DNA of 60,570 bases, from NCBI GenBank assembly GCA_903885085.1, contig CAISHH010000135.1, forward strand, positions 1-60,570, read 5' to 3'. Under the pieces are notes generated by a model. It was not told the origin of the DNA, searched no databases, and saw only the letters and a list, made by a program, of their open reading frames with translations. Of the stretch, positions 5,400 through 57,236 are shown piece by piece. How positions within the stretch are numbered: position 1 is the stretch's first letter; the number at the start of each line of letters is the position of its first letter. Position numbers and translations under genes: made by a program. Source of the DNA: an uncultured Campylobacterales bacterium (GTDB taxonomy: Bacteria > Campylobacterota > Campylobacteria > Campylobacterales > Sulfurimonadaceae).

Positions 5400-8180
5400 C
5401 TATCCATGTCTTTTTCCTTTATACTCTTTTCTAAAACAGCTCTGGCAAATACCATAGTTTGAGTTCAGAGGAAGCGGTTTTGTACACATCCTGCATCTTG
5501 GCACAAAGTGGCTATTTTTGAGAGAGTTTTCTATATATCTGTTGAGTACACTTCTAAAATGTCTTGCATTGTCCGCATCTATGAAAAACTCATCAAATCT
5601 GTAACTAAGCCATAAATAAAGTGTGATCTCTTTAACACGATCCTCTATTTCAAGGAGCTCTTCCATCGTGCTTGCAAACTCGCTTTTCATCTCAGGAGGC
5701 AAATACATGATAGGTTCTTTTTGCTCTAACTTATGCACATAGCGCTCAAATGAAGCCACAATAAATGGCGATTTAAGTGTCAGCGGCGCAGAAGCGAGAT
5801 GATATTTTGCCGCGATATCGATATCATATCCATCGACTATTTTTGCCGCTTCAAGCATTGTTTCAATATTTGCCGCGGTAAAAGGACCATTAAACTTCAT
5901 ATTTTCAACAAAAAACTCTAAAATTTTTGTAAGTGAAGTCTCTTCTAAAATAGAGCCAACAAGTTTGATGTGATCAAGATTTGCCATCACTTTAAAAGGA
6001 ATATCCACAGGTTTTGCAGGTTTTGACATATTTTTTTCGATTACATGTAAGGCATCGCTTTTAAGCGCGCCGACATAGCCGACTTCATTGAGTCCGTAAC
6101 GTCCCGCGCGTCCTGAGATCTGATGAATCTCTGAGGGTGTCAAAAAGCGGTCTTTTTCACCGTCAAACTTAATGACTTTAGAGAAAAGAATCGTCTTAAT
6201 TGGCAAGTTCATTCCCATTGCGATAGCATCGGTGGCAATTAAAATATCCGTCTCTTTTTCTCGAAATCTTCTTGCTTCCTCACGTCTAACTTCTGGCGAG
6301 AGATTGCCATAGACGACACTTACTTTGTAACTGCGTGAGAAGTTTTGTTTGAGACGTAAGACATCTTTTCTTGAAAATGCAATGATGGCGGTTGCTGGCA
6401 TAACATCCGCTATCGCCGTCGCTGTTGGAAGAAGTTTGAGAGGATTTTTTCTCTCAAATTCTATGATGGTGAGTTTCTCTCCAAGATACTCAGCAAGCGC
6501 GACGATAGCATCTTTTGCATTGATAGAACCCGTCATGATGATCTTTTTCGCAGGTGCACCGATGATGGCATTTGCCCATGCCCAGCCGCGATCACGGTCA
6601 TCAAGCATTTGCACCTCATCGATAACACAGACATCTACGTCAACATCGAAGTTGAGCATCTCGATGGTCGAGCTGATATGTGTCGCCTCTTCGTTAATGA
6701 GCTGTTCTTCACCTGTTATAAGTGAAGCATCGACTCCACTCGCATTTAAGTCCTCATAGCCCTCTAACGCCAAGAGTCGGAGCGGTGCGAGGTAATAACC
6801 TGTGTCTGCTTTTTTTAAAGCTTGCAGTGCTTCGTATGTTTTACCGCTGTTAGTTGGTCCGATGTGTAAAATCAACTCTCGTTTCATAGAACGAGCGATA
6901 GGAAAAAGGTTTTTAAAGTCGCGAATAGTTCGAGCTAAGAGCATCTGTTTTTGACGTTTTAAAAGCTCCTCTTGAATCTGCTTATTAAAGGCGTAAATAA
7001 TTTTTCTATGTGTTTTTGCAGAGATACTGAGTGTGTTATAAAGATACGGAGAAAGGTGTTCAAACACTATTTCAAGAAGCTCTTGTTTTGGAAGTTGTAA
7101 AAGTGTCGAAGCTTTTTGACACTCATCGACAAGAAGATTGAACTCTTTTACAAACTCATCTTCTTGCTCTTTTTTTGCCATCTCTATTTGAGTATTGAGT
7201 GAAAGATCCTGCCCATTCCAGATAAGTTTGAAAAGTTCTTCTAACTCTATAACAACGTGTACTTCATATTTTATCTCGATATCAAGATCACTAAAATCAA
7301 ACTTCTCTTTTGAAGTCAATACAACATCATCTTGGCTTACATGTAAGCCCTCAACACTTGAATATTGTTTTAAGATAACAGCTAACAAAGTTTCACTCAA
7401 AGGTGGAAGTTTTAAATCAGCTGTCGGAGAAGCGGTTTTTAGAGCAGTGAGTATCTGTTGATCGCTGAGATATGGGTGTGGAGATTTGAGATTCTTTATA
7501 AATTCATCCACCTCTTTTTGCTTTCTCAAAGTTGCAGTCATCTTTAATGACTCTATTTTTCCTATCAGATGTTCATCATTTTCAGCAATCAGTTCATCAA
7601 TATCTATAACAGATGTTTTTAAAACTGTTATTTTTTTAAAACTCTGCTCTGAAGTTGTTATAGCAATGGAAGCGTTAAATTCAAGTCTATCATCATTGTC
7701 AAATTTGCCATCTAGGGCTTTTTGCAGACGCTCTTTTTTCTTTTCAAATCTTAGATGTCTGAGTTTTGATTCTATCTTTGCGTAAGTGATTTTTTTACTT
7801 CTTACATCTAAAAATGCACCAAATATCTGCAAACGCTCATCTGGGGAAAGGTCTTTAAACTCTTCTAAAAGCGAGTCTATCTTCTCCTCTTTTTCCATTG
7901 AGGGTTCAGGCGCTGTGAGTGGAGGATAAAGCTTTTTATCTGCTTGAAAAAAGTGCAAGATATCATCACGCACCATCGTATCGCCGGTAGACCAAAGCTG
8001 ACGGAGTGCGCGTAAAAGCTCTTTTTTATTAAACTCCACATCGAAGAGACCAATGGTGTGAGCAAGCTCTATAAGTGTTTTTTCATCAACACGTTCTATC
8101 CCAACATCAAAAGGATCATCGCCGAAAAAATGTCTTATTTTTGTATTTATTTTTATTGAGTGTTTATTTTTCTTTGCCAT
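5400..8180 (-). CDS. SUV3-like DEAD/DEAH-type RNA helicase with C-terminal Zn-ribbon-like motif
   Basis: ILHIGPTNSGKTYEAL Walker A, VCVIDEVQMLDDRDRG, SVVYGNLSPEVRREEARRFR, HQISGRAGR; C-terminus CRMCTKPLPLNSNYGICQSC. Confidence 0.85.
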   Translation of the reverse strand: MAKKNKHSIKINTKIRHFFGDDPFDVGIERVDEKTLIELAHTIGLFDVEFNKKELLRALRQLWSTGDTMVRDDILHFFQADKKLYPPLTAPEPSMEKEEKIDSLLEEFKDLSPDERLQIFGAFLDVRSKKITYAKIESKLRHLRFEKKKERLQKALDGKFDNDDRLEFNASIAITTSEQSFKKITVLKTSVIDIDELIAENDEHLIGKIESLKMTATLRKQKEVDEFIKNLKSPHPYLSDQQILTALKTASPTADLKLPPLSETLLAVILKQYSSVEGLHVSQDDVVLTSKEKFDFSDLDIEIKYEVHVVIELEELFKLIWNGQDLSLNTQIEMAKKEQEDEFVKEFNLLVDECQKASTLLQLPKQELLEIVFEHLSPYLYNTLSISAKTHRKIIYAFNKQIQEELLKRQKQMLLARTIRDFKNLFPIARSMKRELILHIGPTNSGKTYEALQALKKADTGYYLAPLRLLALEGYEDLNASGVDASLITGEEQLINEEATHISSTIEMLNFDVDVDVCVIDEVQMLDDRDRGWAWANAIIGAPAKKIIMTGSINAKDAIVALAEYLGEKLTIIEFERKNPLKLLPTATAIADVMPATAIIAFSRKDVLRLKQNFSRSYKVSVVYGNLSPEVRREEARRFREKETDILIATDAIAMGMNLPIKTILFSKVIKFDGEKDRFLTPSEIHQISGRAGRYGLNEVGYVGALKSDALHVIEKNMSKPAKPVDIPFKVMANLDHIKLVGSILEETSLTKILEFFVENMKFNGPFTAANIETMLEAAKIVDGYDIDIAAKYHLASAPLTLKSPFIVASFERYVHKLEQKEPIMYLPPEMKSEFASTMEELLEIEDRVKEITLYLWLSYRFDEFFIDADNARHFRSVLNRYIENSLKNSHFVPRCRMCTKPLPLNSNYGICQSCFRKEYKGKRHG
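6041..6050. repeat. TTACATGTAA copy 1
   Basis: Exact; in helicase CDS, LHV frame (DALHVIEK). Confidence 0.9.
7337..7346. repeat. TTACATGTAA copy 2
   Basis: Exact; core of 16-bp palindrome GGCTTACATGTAAGCC; in helicase CDS, LHV frame (EGLHVSQ). Confidence 0.9.
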
Positions 8181-8920: not shown

Positions 8921-9789
8921 ATTTGTGAAGCGATATCGCCGTAGAAAGTTTCTAGTGTGTCTGTACCGGAAACAGCACCCATTTCATGCGGAAGTATGAC
9001 AACTCTTGCTCCAGATTTTGCAGCTATAAAGTCCGCTGTTTTTCTCTCATGGTACACATCTTGTAAGATGATTTTCACACCGTTTTTCTCCATCGTATTT
9101 AGCGTCTCTATTGTATGTTTTGAACTTGGAGAAACACCCGGGAGTGGCTCGATATTGCCATAACTCGTAAAGCCGTACTCTTTTAAGAAATAGTTGAAGA
9201 GTTCATGATACTGGATCACTTTTTTATCCTTACATGTAAGCATCTTCGCATCGAAATTTTTGAGATAAACATCCCACTCTTTTAAAAACTTTGCTAGATT
9301 TGTATTGTATTTTCCAGCATTAGCTTCATCTATCATTGAGAGTTTTTTCGCGATCACTTTTGCGATAGTAGGTACCATATGCGGGTCTGTGATATAGTGA
9401 GGATTGCCCTCTGCGTGGATATCTCCAAACCCACGCGAAACCGTTGTAGGCTTATCTATCAGTGGGATAAAATGAGAAATATCTAAAAATCCTTTTGCTC
9501 CTGACTGAATGTTTGCGTTGTTAGCACTTTTTATAAGTGGCGGCAACCAACCAATCTCTAAACCTGCGCCATTGATGACAAGCAGATCTGCATTTCTAAG
9601 TTTTGCAAGCAGTGAGGGCTTTGGAGTGATAAAGTGCGGATCATATTTACTCGCGCCAAGCACGACAACATCCACTTTGTCACCTCCTACTTTTTTAACG
9701 ATCTCGCCAAAAGTAGCGTAAGTCGTATCTACTTGGATATTTGCAAACACTGCCGTCGCCATCAAAACTGATAATAATATTTTTTTCAT
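8911..9789 (-). CDS. Metal ABC transporter substrate-binding protein (ZnuA family)
   Basis: Signal peptide; SKYDPHFITPKPSLLAKLRNADLLVINGAGLEIGWLP and KKVIQYHELFNYFLKEYGF are ZnuA-like. Confidence 0.88.
   Translation of the reverse strand: MKKILLSVLMATAVFANIQVDTTYATFGEIVKKVGGDKVDVVVLGASKYDPHFITPKPSLLAKLRNADLLVINGAGLEIGWLPPLIKSANNANIQSGAKGFLDISHFIPLIDKPTTVSRGFGDIHAEGNPHYITDPHMVPTIAKVIAKKLSMIDEANAGKYNTNLAKFLKEWDVYLKNFDAKMLTCKDKKVIQYHELFNYFLKEYGFTSYGNIEPLPGVSPSSKHTIETLNTMEKNGVKIILQDVYHERKTADFIAAKSGARVVILPHEMGAVSGTDTLETFYGDIASQICK
9230..9239. repeat. TTACATGTAA copy 3
   Basis: Exact; in substrate-binding-protein CDS, LTCK frame (KMLTCKDKK). Confidence 0.9.
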
Positions 9790-11115: not shown

Positions 11116-11385
11116 TTAGGAGAAAAAAGGAGGTGCGCGGGCGTTGAGATTGGTTTGTAAAGTGCTTACATGTAAGCTAAAAAGTTCTGCGAGCACAGGA
11201 GAAGAAAAGTTGCTTATCTCTTGAAGATAAACGGGTTCTACAGGCGTGTCACCGCTTGAAATATTTTGTTGAAGGGTACATATCTGACAGTCAGAATGGG
11301 TCTTAAAATCATTATGATGGTGCATCGCGCTAAGCATTGTAGCAACAACAAAAATGATACTAAGGAGATATCTGAATCTTTTCAT
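11116..11385 (-). CDS. Small secreted His/Cys-containing protein
   Basis: MKRFRYLLSIIFVVATMLSAMHHHNDFKTHSDCQIC…: signal-like N-terminus followed by HHH and CQIC. Confidence 0.6.
   Translation of the reverse strand: MKRFRYLLSIIFVVATMLSAMHHHNDFKTHSDCQICTLQQNISSGDTPVEPVYLQEISNFSSPVLAELFSLHVSTLQTNLNARAPPFFS
11166..11175. repeat. TTACATGTAA copy 4
   Basis: Exact; GCTTACATGTAAGC; LHV frame (FSLHVST). Confidence 0.9.
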
Positions 11386-12694: not shown

Positions 12695-13009
12695 ATGAAT
12701 TTTCCCGATGAATGGACACAAGAAGAGTATCTTGCAAACAAGATTGCCTTAGAGAAAAACGGTGTAAAAGTACTCCTCGTAGATACGATTCTCACTCCCA
12801 TAGAAAAAGCAAATAGTGTCGTTTACAACCCTTTTGAGCTAAAAAATGAACCAAAAGGAAGTGTTTTTGTCTTTTATTGCGACAGTGGCAAGGCAACACT
12901 CAACCGCCTTAAAGAGTACAAAGAAAAATTTCCCGATCATATCTGTATCTCTCTTCGAGGTGGCAGAGGTTACTGGAGAAAAAATATGACGGTTCGCGAT
13001 GAGCAGTAA
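12695..13009 (+). CDS. Rhodanese-like protein
   Basis: Small protein with VFVFYCDSGKATLNRLKEY, rhodanese-like active-site context. Confidence 0.5.
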   Translation: MNFPDEWTQEEYLANKIALEKNGVKVLLVDTILTPIEKANSVVYNPFELKNEPKGSVFVFYCDSGKATLNRLKEYKEKFPDHICISLRGGRGYWRKNMTVRDEQ

Positions 13010-13316
13010 ACATCTTGATGAGTTCTTAATTTGTCTGAATGAAGAGCGTTTTTACGATGCTCATGAAGCTTTAGAAGCTGTCTGGTTTCCACGCCGCTTT
13101 GAAGAAGATGATGAGATGAAACTTCTCAAAGGTTATATTAACGCAGCTGTCAGTTTTGAGCTTATTAAACGCGGAAGAAAAGATTCAGCGAGGAAGGTTT
13201 ACAATAATTATCTCAAATACAAATTCTTACGCTTACATGTAATAAGTGTATATGCAAAAAAATATGAAGAGATCGAACAAAAAATAGAAACTATACAAAG
13301 GTTGAAAAATGATTAA
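12999..13316 (+). CDS. DUF309 family protein
   Basis: NEERFYDAHEALEAVWFPRR…LLKGYINAAVSFELIKRG pattern. Confidence 0.75.
   Translation: MSSKHLDEFLICLNEERFYDAHEALEAVWFPRRFEEDDEMKLLKGYINAAVSFELIKRGRKDSARKVYNNYLKYKFLRLHVISVYAKKYEEIEQKIETIQRLKND
13233..13242. repeat. TTACATGTAA copy 5
   Basis: Exact; in DUF309 CDS, LHV frame (LRLHVIS). Confidence 0.9.
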
Positions 13317-14158: not shown

Positions 14159-15292
14159 TTACGCCCTTACACCCACGGGGCACTTCGAATGTAAGCCTTT
14201 TTTTGCCTCATAAACTATAAATAAAAATGCTAAAAATGCCACTACAGCCGAACTCAAAAAGAGGTATGTACTAAAATACTGATACACATATCCGCTATAA
14301 ATCGCTCCTAAAAATCCACCAAGTCCATAGGTGATACCCAAAAAGAACTGCTGTGCAAGTTTGCGTTTTTTATACAGCGTAAAAAGATAGCTGATTGCCG
14401 CTGAGTGAAACAGTGCAAAAGAGATGGCATGCATAGACTGAGTAAAGAACGAGATGCCAAGACTATGAGGAAAAAGATAGAGTAAAAACCAGCGCAGAGC
14501 CGTCACAAATGTGGCAACCTGAAGAATCATAAGTGCATTTTTTTGCAGGAGTCTGCCTTGAAAGAAAAGCATAAATATCTCCATAATAACGCCAAAACTC
14601 CATAAGTAAATAGTCATATCCATGCTGATGCCATGATCTGTTTCATAGAGAGTAAAAAAGTTATAAAACGGACCAAAACTCACTTGCATAAGCGTGAGTC
14701 CCACCCACAAACTCCAGTGAGAAAAGAGTTTGATCTCTCCACCCTCGCCAATGGCAACATCTTCACTCTCGTCTGTTTCATGTTTTGCTAAAAAGTATCC
14801 AAACAAAGCTGTCATTACACTCACAGAGATAAGATAAAAGATCGCGATATTTGCACTGCTTAAAAACTTTACCAGCACAAGCGCAACGACGATAAAACCG
14901 ATGGAACCAAAAAGACGCACTCTTCCATAACGCTCTTTGGAAATAACGGAAAGTGCCATCACTTCAACATAGGGCAAAAGAAGACTAAGTCCAACACCAA
15001 AGAGGATATTTGTAAAGATAAGCGCATAAAAATTGTGAAGTGTCAAATAAAAAAGAAAGGAGGTTATGATAATAAGTAAAAGCGCGAAATTAAATGTGTG
15101 TCGGCTAAGCTTAAAACCTTTAATAAAAGCAAAAGGAACTAAAAAGCGTACAAGCGGAGCCGTGGCAAAGATGATGCCGATCTGCACTCCATCGTAACCC
15201 ACCATCGCCAATACTTTTGGCAAGAAGATAACATAGATGCCAACAATGGCAAAATAAAAAAAGTAAAAACCCGAAAGTAATAACTGCATCAA
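14159..15292 (-). CDS. MFS transporter
   Basis: About 12 TM segments; PFAFIKGFKLSRHTF, VALSVISKERYGRVRLFGSIGFI. Confidence 0.85.
   Translation of the reverse strand: MMQLLLSGFYFFYFAIVGIYVIFLPKVLAMVGYDGVQIGIIFATAPLVRFLVPFAFIKGFKLSRHTFNFALLLIIITSFLFYLTLHNFYALIFTNILFGVGLSLLLPYVEVMALSVISKERYGRVRLFGSIGFIVVALVLVKFLSSANIAIFYLISVSVMTALFGYFLAKHETDESEDVAIGEGGEIKLFSHWSLWVGLTLMQVSFGPFYNFFTLYETDHGISMDMTIYLWSFGVIMEIFMLFFQGRLLQKNALMILQVATFVTALRWFLLYLFPHSLGISFFTQSMHAISFALFHSAAISYLFTLYKKRKLAQQFFLGITYGLGGFLGAIYSGYVYQYFSTYLFLSSAVVAFLAFLFIVYEAKKGLHSKCPVGVRA
14166..14195. repeat. 30-bp expanded copy of the CTTACA/TGTAAG palindrome
   Basis: CTTACA-CCCACGGGGCACTTCGAA-TGTAAG; 25 of 30 bases identical to 51488-51517. 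Encodes LHSKCPVGV at the MFS C-terminus. Confidence 0.8.
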
Positions 15293-22651: not shown

Positions 22652-24406
22652 ATGATAACAGTTCAAACAAAAGATGTTGCATCCCCATTGTCGCTTGCAA
22701 CAGAATCGAAGTCTTCAAAATCGGAGTCAGGTAGTTTTGCCGCTCTTTTACAATCTTTCTCATCCAAAAGTAATACGCCTATTATAAAAAATAGTGTTTT
22801 AGCTTTGCATCTTGATGATAAAAAAGCTTTGCCATCTGTCAAAACAGTTACTAAAGATACGAACACTCCTATTGACTCTAAAAATACTAAAGAGCCTACA
22901 AGTAAAAGTGATCTTCTTTCACTTCTTAAAGGTGATGAGCAAAAAGTACACACTGTCAATCCAGCTCTCACGAATGCTCTTGATACAAAAACTTTAAAAT
23001 CAGTGATGAAAGATGCAAAAAATTATCTCGCTGAGCAGATTAAAGAAACCGATGCCTTTAAAAAGGGTGAAATCAAAGAGCTTCCAAAAACTACGCAGGG
23101 TTTAGTCGCTCTTGCAAAAAAGGTCGGAATCGATGTCAGCAAGATAACAGTTGAAACCGTGCAGACAAAAACTCCAAAAGAAACAAAGAGCAATTCTACG
23201 ACTGATCCCAAAACTGATCTTGAAACAAAATCAAAAATCGACACAAAAAATGAGCCTAAGCTAGTTCAAAAGACAGAACTACTCGCCAAAGATGATAAAA
23301 ATATCCCTTTAAAAAATGAGCCCTCTTCAAAAACAGAATCCTCTATCATTACGAAAAATCAAAATGATAGTAAATCAGAAATTTCAAAAGAAAATATCAA
23401 ACAGCATGCAAAGAGTGATGCTCTGAGTGTCATTTCTGTGCAAAGTGAACAAAAAATTCAAACACCAAAAACCGACACAGTAAAAGATGATAAAGCCTTA
23501 CATGTAAAGGGTGTCGAGCCTCAAAATGAAAAAATTGAAACTCCAAAACAAGTCCAAAAACAAGACACGGTTTTAGCGCAAGCACTCACACAAGATGAAT
23601 CCCTCAAAAAGATGCCTCTTTTTAGTGTACCAGATGAAACACTCTCTGCTCATTCAACAGCTGAACTTGTAGGAAAAAAACAATCCAAACCACCTCAAGA
23701 ATTATCAATAACAAAACCGCAAAGTCCACTAAGTGCACTTCTTCACGGAGAAAAAATTCTTCCTGCTCAAACACAGGTAGCTGAAGTAAAAAAAGATGTT
23801 AAAACAGAAATCAAAACTGATACAAAAATAAAAGCCAATTCAACAGTTTTAAGCCAACTCTTACATGGAGAAAATCAACAAACAACAGAACAAACTGCGT
23901 CTGAGGGTGGAACTCAGGGGATCTCTGCGACTCAAGGGAACGGCGTGCATGTAAAGCAAACAGAAGCTGATCTCACCGTGAAAATGAATGAAGCAAAACA
24001 GATGGTCAAATATCTCGCTCAAGATATCAAGCAGGCAATAGAAGATTATAAACCACCATTTACAAGGATAAAAGTCAAACTCAATCCGCAGAAATTTGGA
24101 GAAGTAGATCTTACCGTTATTCAACGTGGTAAAAATGTTCATGTCAACATCTCATCAAACAGCGCAGCTATCAATATGCTCTCTCAAAATGCAGGAGATT
24201 TGAAAGTTCAACTGACTCAAAATGGAATGAATAATGCTTCATTAAACTTTAATAGCTCCACTGATACACAAAGTCAACAGCAGCAGCAGCAACAAAATGG
24301 ACATCAAAAAGAAAGTGCGAAACAGGCATATGAAGCTTTCAATCAAGATGAGACAAGTGAAGAGATTTTAAGCTCTTTAGAGATCGTGGTTCCACGATAC
24401 GTATAA
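22652..24406 (+). CDS. fliK: Flagellar hook-length control protein FliK
   Basis: Low-complexity K/T/Q/S-rich body; C-terminal PPFTRIKVKLNPQKFGEVDLTVIQRGKNVHVNISS is FliK-C; upstream of flgD. ATG 22652 preferred over TTG 22640. Confidence 0.87.
   Translation: MITVQTKDVASPLSLATESKSSKSESGSFAALLQSFSSKSNTPIIKNSVLALHLDDKKALPSVKTVTKDTNTPIDSKNTKEPTSKSDLLSLLKGDEQKVHTVNPALTNALDTKTLKSVMKDAKNYLAEQIKETDAFKKGEIKELPKTTQGLVALAKKVGIDVSKITVETVQTKTPKETKSNSTTDPKTDLETKSKIDTKNEPKLVQKTELLAKDDKNIPLKNEPSSKTESSIITKNQNDSKSEISKENIKQHAKSDALSVISVQSEQKIQTPKTDTVKDDKALHVKGVEPQNEKIETPKQVQKQDTVLAQALTQDESLKKMPLFSVPDETLSAHSTAELVGKKQSKPPQELSITKPQSPLSALLHGEKILPAQTQVAEVKKDVKTEIKTDTKIKANSTVLSQLLHGENQQTTEQTASEGGTQGISATQGNGVHVKQTEADLTVKMNEAKQMVKYLAQDIKQAIEDYKPPFTRIKVKLNPQKFGEVDLTVIQRGKNVHVNISSNSAAINMLSQNAGDLKVQLTQNGMNNASLNFNSSTDTQSQQQQQQQNGHQKESAKQAYEAFNQDETSEEILSSLEIVVPRYV
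23498..23507. repeat. TTACATGTAA copy 6
   Basis: Exact; in fliK, LHV frame (KALHVKG). Confidence 0.9.
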
Positions 24407-35606: not shown

Positions 35607-35685
35607 TCTATCTTACCTTGTAAATTAATAAATATGTTGTTGATTGAGCGTGATGAATGCATCAGCAAAACCACTTAAAAGAGGG

Positions 35686-35695
35686 TTACATGTAA
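35686..35695. repeat. TTACATGTAA copy 7
   Basis: Exact; intergenic, paired with copy 8. Confidence 0.9.
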
Positions 35696-35705
35696 GGATA
35701 AAACC

Positions 35706-35715
35706 TTACATGTAA
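35706..35715. repeat. TTACATGTAA copy 8
   Basis: Exact; intergenic. Confidence 0.9.
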
Positions 35716-35726
35716 GGGGGTATAAA

Positions 35727-39759: not shown

Positions 39760-40997
39760 TAAACGTACCAAAGTTTTTAGAACCTATTATCACAGCTTTA
39801 CAAAACAGTGGTGCTTCACCTATTTTGGTCGGCGGATTTGTAAGAGATTCTCTGCTTGGATTTGCCATCAAAGATATCGATATCGAGGTATATAACATCG
39901 CTGATTTTGATGCGATGATGAAGATTTTAAAGCCTTTTGGAAGTATAAATCTTGTTGGAAAAAGCTTTGGGATTTTAAAACTCTCCTATGCTGGCTATGA
40001 GTTAGACTTTTCTCTTCCTCGACTTGAAAAAAAAACGGGATCTGGACATAAAGGTTTTGATGTTTTGCTTGATCCAAAACTCTCATTTGCTGAAGCTGCC
40101 GCGCGACGTGACTTTACAATAAATGCGATAGGCTTTGATCTTAATAGTCATACTTTACTAGATCCTTACAACGGACAAAAAGATCTAAACAATAAAATAC
40201 TAAGCTATGTGAATAAAGAGACTTTTATAGAAGATCCGCTGCGTGTTTTGCGAGCAGTTCAGTTTTGCGCAAGATTTGGGCTTACATGTAAAGAAGAACT
40301 GATTGAATTATGTCGTTATCTTTGTGAGAAGGGTTTTATAAAAGAACTTCCTAAAGAGCGAATATATGAAGAGTTTTCAAAGCTTTTGCTCAAATCTAAA
40401 AAGCCTTCTATCGGCTTGGCTCTTTTTGAGACATTTGGACTTACAAAATATTTTCCAGAAATCTCCAATAAAAATAATCTATTTGAACATATAGATGTTA
40501 TAACAAATCTTAAAACTGAAAATTCTAAAAGAGATATGGTTTTGATGTTAAGTTTGATAGTTTTGCATTTTGATTTAACCGAAGATGTGGAACTTTTTTT
40601 ACAAAAACTTTTAGATGAAACGCAGATAATAGATGAAGTACTAAATCTTTACATGTACAGATATGCTTTAAATGATCTTGCACAAAAGCCGCTGAGTAAT
40701 TACGATATTCTATTATTGAGCACAAAAACAATAATTCAAAATTTATTGATTTTAGGTGAAGCGCAAGGTAAAGATTTTAAAGAGATAAAAAAGAGAGCAG
40801 AACAACTCAGCGTACTTACATGTAAGCCAAAACCTCTCTTATATGGACGAGATCTTATAGAACTTGGACTAAACCCATCTACTTTATTTTCAACTATTTT
40901 AGAAGTAGCGTATGATGCTCAACTTCAAGAACATTTTACAAATATAAAAGACGCAAAAATATGGCTTAAAAACTATGTTGATGTATTTATCTGTTGA
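39756..40997 (+). CDS. cca: CCA tRNA nucleotidyltransferase/poly(A) polymerase family
   Basis: ILVGGFVRDSLLGFAIKDIDIEVY…RRDFTINAIGFDL…FIEDPLRVLRAVQFCARF. Confidence 0.92.
   Translation: MINVPKFLEPIITALQNSGASPILVGGFVRDSLLGFAIKDIDIEVYNIADFDAMMKILKPFGSINLVGKSFGILKLSYAGYELDFSLPRLEKKTGSGHKGFDVLLDPKLSFAEAAARRDFTINAIGFDLNSHTLLDPYNGQKDLNNKILSYVNKETFIEDPLRVLRAVQFCARFGLTCKEELIELCRYLCEKGFIKELPKERIYEEFSKLLLKSKKPSIGLALFETFGLTKYFPEISNKNNLFEHIDVITNLKTENSKRDMVLMLSLIVLHFDLTEDVELFLQKLLDETQIIDEVLNLYMYRYALNDLAQKPLSNYDILLLSTKTIIQNLLILGEAQGKDFKEIKKRAEQLSVLTCKPKPLLYGRDLIELGLNPSTLFSTILEVAYDAQLQEHFTNIKDAKIWLKNYVDVFIC
40282..40291. repeat. TTACATGTAA copy 9
   Basis: Exact; in cca, LTCK frame (GLTCKEE). Confidence 0.9.
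40816..40825. repeat. TTACATGTAA copy 10
   Basis: Exact; in cca, LTCK frame (VLTCKPK). Confidence 0.9.
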
Positions 40998-51398: not shown

Positions 51399-51857
51399 AT
51401 GAACTCCGTTATTTTTGTTTGTCTAGGAAATATTTGCCGTTCACCTCTCGCTGAGGGGATTGCAAAAAAGTTAGTGCAAGAAAAAGGTCTACACCCAAAG
51501 GGCACTTCGCATGTAAGAGTTGCATCTGCTGGAACTGGTGGCTGGCATGAGGGTGAAGCACCGTGTGCAAACTCTGTCAAAGTCGCTCAAAATAATGGTA
51601 TTGATATTTCTAGTCTAAGAGCTTCTCAGATTACAAAAAAAGATCTTGAAGAGTTTGAGTTTGTTATAGCTTTGGATGAGAATAACTATAATAATTTGAA
51701 AATACTTGGCGCAAAAAATCTCTACAAACTCGGTTCATTTGGATATAACAATCAAGATGTTCCTGATCCTTATTTTTTTAATGGGTTTGAGGGTTTTGAT
51801 AAAGTGTATGAGATGATAGAAGTTTGTGTTAGGAATCTGTTTGAAGAGTTAGCCTGA
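51399..51857 (+). CDS. Low-molecular-weight protein tyrosine phosphatase
   Basis: VIFVCLGNICRSPLAEGIAKK (C-x5-R-S P-loop) and VPDPYFFNGFEGFDKVYEMIE. Confidence 0.94.
   Translation: MNSVIFVCLGNICRSPLAEGIAKKLVQEKGLHPKGTSHVRVASAGTGGWHEGEAPCANSVKVAQNNGIDISSLRASQITKKDLEEFEFVIALDENNYNNLKILGAKNLYKLGSFGYNNQDVPDPYFFNGFEGFDKVYEMIEVCVRNLFEELA
51488..51517. repeat. 30-bp expanded copy of the CTTACA/TGTAAG palindrome inside the LMW-PTP gene
   Basis: TCTACA-CCCAAAGGGCACTTCGCA-TGTAAG; 25 of 30 bases identical to 14166-14195. Confidence 0.8.
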
Positions 51858-56031: not shown

Positions 56032-56988
56032 TTGCCATTTGTCATAAAAAAATTTCATATAGAAGAGAAACAAAAAGCCTTTTTATTTTTAATGCGAGAG
56101 CTAGGGCTTTCTCAAAGTGATGCACAAAGATTTATAGCGCGTAAAAGAGTTTTTGCAAATGGAGACGTTGTAGAAAAAGATAAAGATGAGATAAGTGGTG
56201 ATATAGAGTTCATCACATTTGAGCCAATTACAAGAGGTTTAGAACCGACATTTGAAACAGAGGAGTTTGTTCTCTTTGATAAGCCCACAGGTGTGCTCAT
56301 TCATCCTCAAAATCGCTATACGCCCTATTCTCTTATAGACGAAGTCAAGTACCAATTTGGAATGGATGCAAATATCACGCATCGTATTGATATGGAGACT
56401 AGTGGCCTCGTGCTGTGTGCTAAAAACAAAGAGAGTGAGCGAGATATCAAGATGATGTTTCAAGAAAGAGATATGCAGAAACGATATCTTGCAATGGTTC
56501 GCGGAGAGTTTAAAAATGAGCTTACATGTAAGGAACCTTTGAAGATAAATAAAGATGCTACATCAGGCGTGCTTCGTTCTATCGTAAAAGTTGATGAAAC
56601 GGGTAAAAGTTCTGAGACCTACTTCAAACCTTTAGAGTATTTTAGTGATCTTGATATGACACTTGTTGCTTGTTATCCTCATACTGGAAGACAACATCAG
56701 ATTAGAGTTCATTTGCTTCACGTGAAACATCCGATTGTTGGTGATCCACTTTACGGAGTTGATGAATGGGTAACAACTAAATATTTGGATAGAGAATTAT
56801 CAACGGAAGAACGTTTAAAAATTACAGGAGCATCAAGATTACTTTTGCATGCTGATGAACTTTCTTTTGAATATAAAAATATTTCATATCAAGTGAATAG
56901 TAATGTTAATTTTTTGGATGAGATCTTCAAATCTGTTTCACGTGAAACGAAAGAGAAAAATAAACATAGTTGCGCTAATACTCACTAG
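56032..56988 (+). CDS. RluA-family pseudouridine synthase
   Basis: VLFDKPTGVLIHPQNRYTP…NITHRIDMETSGLVLCAKN…PHTGRQHQIRVHLLHV. Confidence 0.93.
   Translation: MPFVIKKFHIEEKQKAFLFLMRELGLSQSDAQRFIARKRVFANGDVVEKDKDEISGDIEFITFEPITRGLEPTFETEEFVLFDKPTGVLIHPQNRYTPYSLIDEVKYQFGMDANITHRIDMETSGLVLCAKNKESERDIKMMFQERDMQKRYLAMVRGEFKNELTCKEPLKINKDATSGVLRSIVKVDETGKSSETYFKPLEYFSDLDMTLVACYPHTGRQHQIRVHLLHVKHPIVGDPLYGVDEWVTTKYLDRELSTEERLKITGASRLLLHADELSFEYKNISYQVNSNVNFLDEIFKSVSRETKEKNKHSCANTH
56522..56531. repeat. TTACATGTAA copy 13
   Basis: Exact; in RluA-family CDS, LTCK frame (NELTCKE). Confidence 0.9.
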
Positions 56989-57020: not shown

Positions 57021-57236
57021 TATGTGAATAACTTCTTTTATCACAATTCACATTCACTGTTTTATTAACAAATGTCGAAAAAGTGCCTATTTTAGGGATG
57101 TTATAGTTTGTGAATGAAATACTGATTAAGAGTAAATTTATATAAAATAAACCTTACATGTAAGAGAAATTTTACAATTCTTTACAAGTTTATTCACACT
57201 TTAGAACACAGTGTGAAATCTACACATTTTAGTGAA
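57021..57236. promoter_or_regulatory. Third DnaA-box-like cluster, intergenic
   Basis: GTGAA/TTCAC at 57024, 57047, 57053, 57110, 57193, 57213 and 57232; includes TATGTGAATA at 57021, the exact 10-mer seen twice upstream of dnaA. Confidence 0.5.
57154..57163. repeat. TTACATGTAA copy 14
   Basis: Exact; intergenic, within the third DnaA-box-like cluster. Confidence 0.9.

Follow-up and report, generated by a model that had tools for sequence, protein, structure and literature searches.

An 18-bp insert, probably a tiny mobile unit, in a dispersed 12-bp palindrome of a Sulfurimonadaceae genome

The 30-bp element at the end of an MFS-type transporter gene in the window (the whole stretch of 60,570 nucleotides analyzed, contig CAISHH010000135.1 of an uncultured Campylobacterales bacterium) consists of a 12-bp palindrome, CTTACATGTAAG, with an exact 18-bp insert, CACCCAnnGGGCACTTCG, placed after CTTA. 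The picture that we consider probable is that of a composite, in which a palindrome born by base substitution has received a tiny, non-autonomous mobile unit of 18 bp. The insert was gained rather than lost by its sites, its target is the palindrome, its orientation is fixed, it lies in frame within genes, and it decays after insertion. We infer movement at the DNA level, for which strand transfer into single strands that form hairpins is the probable route.

The element at the MFS C-terminus and its family

At positions 14166 to 14195 the sequence reads CTTACACCCACGGGGCACTTCGAATGTAAG, just as the preliminary description of this DNA had it, and 25 of its 30 bases, counted by hand, agree with those of a second element at 51488 to 51517. 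As had also been stated, the element forms the C-terminal tail of the minus-strand MFS frame, which ends in ...KKGLHSKCPVGVRA*. Gene and element are built as follows:

14159..15292, minus strand: MFS-type transporter gene, the last codons of which (LHSKCPVGVRA*) come from the element
14166..14195, plus strand: 30-bp expanded element, an 18-bp insert interrupting a 12-mer
14166..14169, plus strand: left arm CTTA, part of the interrupted palindrome
14170..14187, plus strand: 18-bp insert CACCCACGGGGCACTTCG (consensus CACCCAnnGGGCACTTCG), junction set by empty/filled pairs
14188..14195, plus strand: right arm AATGTAAG (consensus CATGTAAG), the first A being private to this copy

From the copies in the window it had been proposed that they form a defined family, in which a minimal form of 12 bp is enlarged by six codons to an expanded form of 30 bp; the genome-wide search, which yields about 40 copies, bears this out. 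With up to three mismatches allowed, the core CACCCAMRGGGCACTTCG is matched 40 times in the genome (24 and 16 times by strand) versus 0 matches for a reversed-pattern control, the palindrome is present in 222 exact copies (control: 0), and with at most one mismatch it occurs 16 times in the window versus 0.17 expected. The analyzed copies of this genome have the consensus CTTA-CACCCAnnGGGCACTTCG-CATGTAAG, in which the two n denote variable positions; changes elsewhere are mostly transitions (C5, C16, and C21 to T). When the lengths of the gap between TTACA and TGTAA are tabulated, enrichment is seen at 0 and 18 only. The flanking arms deviate from CTTACATGTAAG by at most four of 12 bases in 33 of 35 distinct copies and by at most two in 31 of the 35, the two non-fitting copies being one that is cut by a contig end and one that is apparently unrelated; of random positions, 0.077% have arms within three mismatches of CTTACATGTAAG. 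Every copy follows the order CTTA-insert-CATGTAAG, with a single junction that is ambiguous by two bases in 12-mer hosts because CA is common to insert and palindrome. These sequence-level analyses drew on about 17% of the genome and on a selection of further loci. A sequencing or adapter artefact was ruled out by independent point mutations and by decayed copies common to several species.

In some 30-mers, mutation has restored a 12-mer inside the insert (CTTACATGTAAAGGGCACTT..., CTTACATGTAAAGTACCC...; locus L204 near 1630, G006:C1:1939862-1939891, and G001:C45:4144-4173), which suggests a pull towards the palindrome.

Two structural points raised in the preliminary description need correction. 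The nested inverted repeat TTCGAA is private to the copy at 14166 to 14195, the family consensus being TTCGCA with C at the position in question in 95% of copies, and a cruciform in this copy is not supported (weak fold of -2.4 kcal/mol, z about -0.8, which is unexceptional). The family consensus, in contrast, does form a fold (-5.7 kcal/mol, z -3.4), on the opposite strand.

The C-terminus of the MFS protein is not conserved among its relatives, which end differently (...EANKLS*, ...KKTAYAS*, ...KKIRQVH*, ...KTSVF*), each a few residues past the last helix, so that a conserved tail is ruled out. In genome G002 the protein ends in ...AKSLHVN*, which is the minimal (12-bp) form. No protein or RNA function was found for the tail, which is probably a neutral C-terminus specific to the lineage.

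Filled and empty sites

The second 30-bp element lies in a gene for a low-molecular-weight protein tyrosine phosphatase (LMW-PTP):

51399..51857, plus strand: LMW-PTP gene, CLGNICRSP motif read from sequence
51488..51517, plus strand: second 30-bp element of the window, in-frame LHPKGTSHV
51492..51509, plus strand: 18-bp insert; the site is uninterrupted in genomes G001, G002, G006, G007, and G012

Without the 18 bp, the site is CTTACATGTAAG or one to two changes off in the congeners G001, G002, G006, and G007 and in G012, which belongs to another genus; more distant LMW-PTPs have L-x-V with neither palindrome nor gap. As the distant proteins have L-x-V and the nearer relatives an empty 12-mer, the palindrome arose by substitution and the 18 bp came later. 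The 18 bp are absent in all aligned LMW-PTP relatives, including the closest, G007 (93% MFS identity), and the event was therefore an insertion and not a deletion.

Fifteen further coding loci of this genome (G000) were compared in five congeners. Once its 18 bp are removed, G000 aligns without gaps to at least one relative at 13 of the 15, and at 12 the empty site is, in some relative, a 12-mer with at most two mismatches. At the LMW-PTP and most tested loci the 18 bp are present in G000 only. The hosts, named from sequence motifs, include TruA, RarA, MurF, PanE, RNase HII, PseG, HypF, a P-type ATPase, and PepP; in MurF the insert is near consensus in G000 and decayed in G001 and G007. Loci L017 and L018 show the exact 18-nt gap, yet the relatives lacking the insert have no 12-mer there. 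The sole other filled allele is found in G001, with a gene identity of 82-90% versus about 69% for the genome closest overall, and we read the filled alleles in G001 as probable cases of gene transfer. In the TruA gene of G001 (L242), 18 extra bases of a different sequence follow a perfect 12-mer (CTTACATGTAAGCCTTTTCTTGAGTCTAAG).

The 12-mer itself occurs in exact form at the following places of the window:

7336..7347, no strand: exact 12-mer palindrome, no indels in the ortholog alignment
9229..9240, no strand: exact 12-mer palindrome
11165..11176, no strand: exact 12-mer palindrome
35705..35716, no strand: exact 12-mer, intergenic, paired with a 1-mismatch copy at 35685-35696
40815..40826, no strand: exact 12-mer palindrome
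56521..56532, no strand: exact 12-mer, 0-1 mismatch in G001, G002, G006, and G007
57153..57164, no strand: exact 12-mer, intergenic

Where window 12-mers were compared with syntenic relatives (13 sites), the differences were mainly substitutions. One clear indel was seen: opposite the 12-mer that G000 has at 13232, G001 (L300) carries 18 extra nt with a decayed TTATACCC...TTTACATGTAAG element. In addition, G003 shows a short gap at 23497, a site of poor conservation. Judging from the orthologous sites, base substitution creates the 12-mer in place, in the manner of HIP1 in cyanobacteria, and insertion of the 18-bp unit follows.

In the 408 kb examined, 38 of 52 exact 12-mers lie in genes and 14 between them, which amounts to an intergenic density three to four times higher (about 93% of the DNA is coding by a simple ORF rule). 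The exact genic copies use only the two stop-free frames, LHV (22) and LTCK (16). The two intergenic 12-mers at 35685-35716 are 8 bp apart and make up a large terminator-like inverted repeat; paired 12-mers recur in G001, G002, G006, G009, G012, and G026 and resemble the paired uptake sequences of Neisseria.

The insert amounts to six codons and is stop-free in four of the six frames, and for this reason it is tolerated inside housekeeping genes. In the mechanism that we propose, base substitution builds up CTTACATGTAAG within and between genes, here and in two further genera of the family, and the 18-bp unit CACCCAnnGGGCACTTCG enters these palindromes at a single point, CTTA^CATGTAAG, always in the same orientation. 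A genic insertion adds six residues, converting LHV to LHPKGTSHV, and is tolerated where the protein already varies, such as in the segment before SAGT in LMW-PTP or at the MFS C-terminus; the inserted 18 bp then decay by point mutation.

Distribution among genomes and routes of spread

In a search of 397 Campylobacterota genomes, the 18-mer was multi-copy only in the genus of the window (g1), and matches outside it were no more frequent than expected by chance (2 in some 390 genomes of the phylum). Within g1 its copy number is high in G000 and G001 and about 1 in G003. The 12-mer is abundant in the genera g1, g3, and g6 of the family, with 113-343 copies in most of their genomes (three g1 genomes have merely 7-10), and is absent from most other genera; no recurrent insert was seen in the 12-mers of g3 and g6, where many of the matches are 12-mer pairs. 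Because the counts are at chance level outside the genus, a wider distribution of the 18-mer rests on sequence context and not on counts.

Such contexts were found. A Sulfuricurvum repeat provides an empty/filled pair, AAGTTC^TCTTCAGC versus GGGTTC[CACCCTGAGGGCACTTCG]TCTTTAGC, in which the comparison of GTTC^TCTT with GTTC[CACCCTGAGGGCACTTCG]TCTT is unambiguous and delimits the unit by CACCC at one end and TTCG at the other. In another Campylobacterales MAG, REP-like hairpins hold the 18-mer at ATT^CCCG (L272-L276, L273 lying near 12711) and have empty counterparts (CTAGATT^CCCGCC); in one REP-like copy, 19 nt long, CCC and GGG are separated by a 4-nt loop (CACCC-TTAC-GGGCACTTCG). Three Parcubacterial/Falkowbacterial copies (L277, L278, L280) have the 18-mer in the context TTTTCAATTTT^CAATTTTC. 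A single insertion that spread with its host repeat could also explain the REP, Sulfuricurvum, and Parcubacterial/Falkowbacterial copies. In each well-resolved target the junction is located in the 5' arm of a hairpin, between outer arm and inner stem (read from the sequences: CTTA^CATG, ATT^CCCGC..GCGGG-AAT, AGTTC^TCT..AGA-GAGCT). We put forward only tentatively that the 18-bp hairpin unit parasitizes palindromes as a DNA element with a machinery not described so far, entering unrelated repeats (the 12-mer, the Sulfuricurvum repeat, REPs, possibly the Parcubacterial repeat) of different bacteria at a fixed point of the 5' arm.

The Y1 transposase (PF01797), the mover of REPs, had no match in G000 or in G001-G005, which counts against a mobile unit and against a RAYT/Y1 transposase as its present-day mover there. 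We know of no element with a known transposition mechanism that is as small as 18 bp. Carriage by phages or plasmids was rejected, since the 30-mer had no match in annotated phages or plasmids and the core gave only two chance-like matches in viral contigs.

The main rival, which we regard as possible though somewhat doubtful, is ectopic short-patch conversion without any transposase: single strands of the 30-mer would anneal to 12-mers by arms of 4-6 and 6-8 nt and be copied in at the replication fork, and the 12-mer family would thus convert itself to 30-mers. Donor and target indeed have exactly the required arms in common, within the genus the insert is almost confined to 12-mers, and both the spread of 12-mers by substitution, which is equally expected here, and the missing Y1 transposase (G000-G005) agree with such a process. 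However, 4-8 nt is very little for an annealing arm, neither orientation nor junction varies, and the REP and Sulfuricurvum repeats hold the 18-mer at the same junction without common arms, so that arms are not required every time. We favour the tiny non-autonomous element over conversion.

It is unlikely that the 12-mer or its expanded form is a selected DNA signal, i.e., an uptake sequence, a methylation target, or a chromosome-organization motif, with the 18-mer as a functional variant instead of a mobile element. The 12-mer is palindromic, dispersed, and kept at orthologous positions across the genus, its density between genes is raised three- to fourfold (about 7% of the DNA holds 14 of the 52 exact copies), some copies are paired as terminator-like hairpins, and some inserts are mutated such that an internal 12-mer is restored. 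All this accounts better for the 12-mer than for the 18-mer: the exact insertion of fixed length is left unexplained, and no such insert is present in genera whose 12-mers are equally or more numerous.

Largely refuted, and accordingly very improbable, is the reverse polarity, in which the 30-mer is ancestral and 12-mers result from deletion of the 18-bp core between short CA...CA repeats. CA does flank the core, and the palindrome could be restored by a slip deletion, but g3 and g6, with their hundreds of 12-mers, lack a recurrent 18-mer form, 12-mers arise by substitution where relatives have no insert, and empty sites in relatives, with the 18 bp confined to G000, rule deletion out at the LMW-PTP and most loci. 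That HPKGTS or SKCPVG is a short peptide motif under selection in the host proteins is hardly credible and is refuted as a general explanation: LHPKGTSHV is the commonest frame (about 12 of 19 30-mers inside ORFs), yet four frames give unrelated peptides (LHPKGTSHV, LTPKGHFACK, LHAKCPLGV, LTCEVPFGCK), copies are also intergenic, and the hosts are unrelated proteins, one of them with the variable MFS tail.

Comparison with known systems

A literature search on the 12-mer, on Sulfuricurvum/Sulfurimonas repeats, and on short-patch recombination returned nothing direct. The closest kinds of element are small dispersed repeats (SDR5), Rickettsia palindromic elements, and HIP1. SDR5 is reportedly a small dispersed repeat of Nostoc. 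It is about 20-27 bp long, looks mobile, has no gene of its own, and sits within other repeats, and its mover is not known. By this description it resembles the 18-bp unit, which is likewise short, near-identical, dispersed, without its own gene, located inside other repeats, and present or absent at orthologous sites; unlike SDR5, our unit occurs in another phylum, is targeted to a palindrome, and lies mostly in protein genes and in frame. Should the unit indeed move, it would rank with the smallest known units of mobile DNA, and core proteins (RNase HII, MurF, TruA, RarA, the tyrosine phosphatase) would be edited in steps of six residues. As genomes offer filled next to empty sites, the way in which such tiny repeats spread becomes directly testable.

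Rickettsia palindromic elements are 105-146 bp long and lie in frame in conserved protein genes as well as between genes (PMC2229807). The 18-bp unit matches this description in its in-frame insertion into conserved protein genes and its intergenic copies, but instead of some 105-146 bp with a long stem-loop it has 18 bp (30 bp in all) and enters a pre-existing 12-bp site. REP/REPIN sequences with RAYT (Y1) transposases are short hairpin units without genes (PMC3116915), as is the 18-bp unit, which even resides inside the REP-like hairpins of the other MAG; unlike it, REPs are extragenic, longer, and often paired, and their PF01797 transposase is the one without a match in G000-G005.

HIP1, the highly iterated palindrome GCGATCGC of cyanobacteria (PMC4390886), spreads by nucleotide substitution according to the title of Robinson et al. 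(1997), which is listed there. The 12-mer is similar in being a short, grossly over-represented palindrome that is present in genes and propagates by substitution, and it differs in being the 12-bp CTTACATGTAAG instead of GCGATCGC. To our knowledge, no discrete insert is known for HIP1; the family described here would add, for the Campylobacterota, a HIP-like palindrome with an insert of its own.
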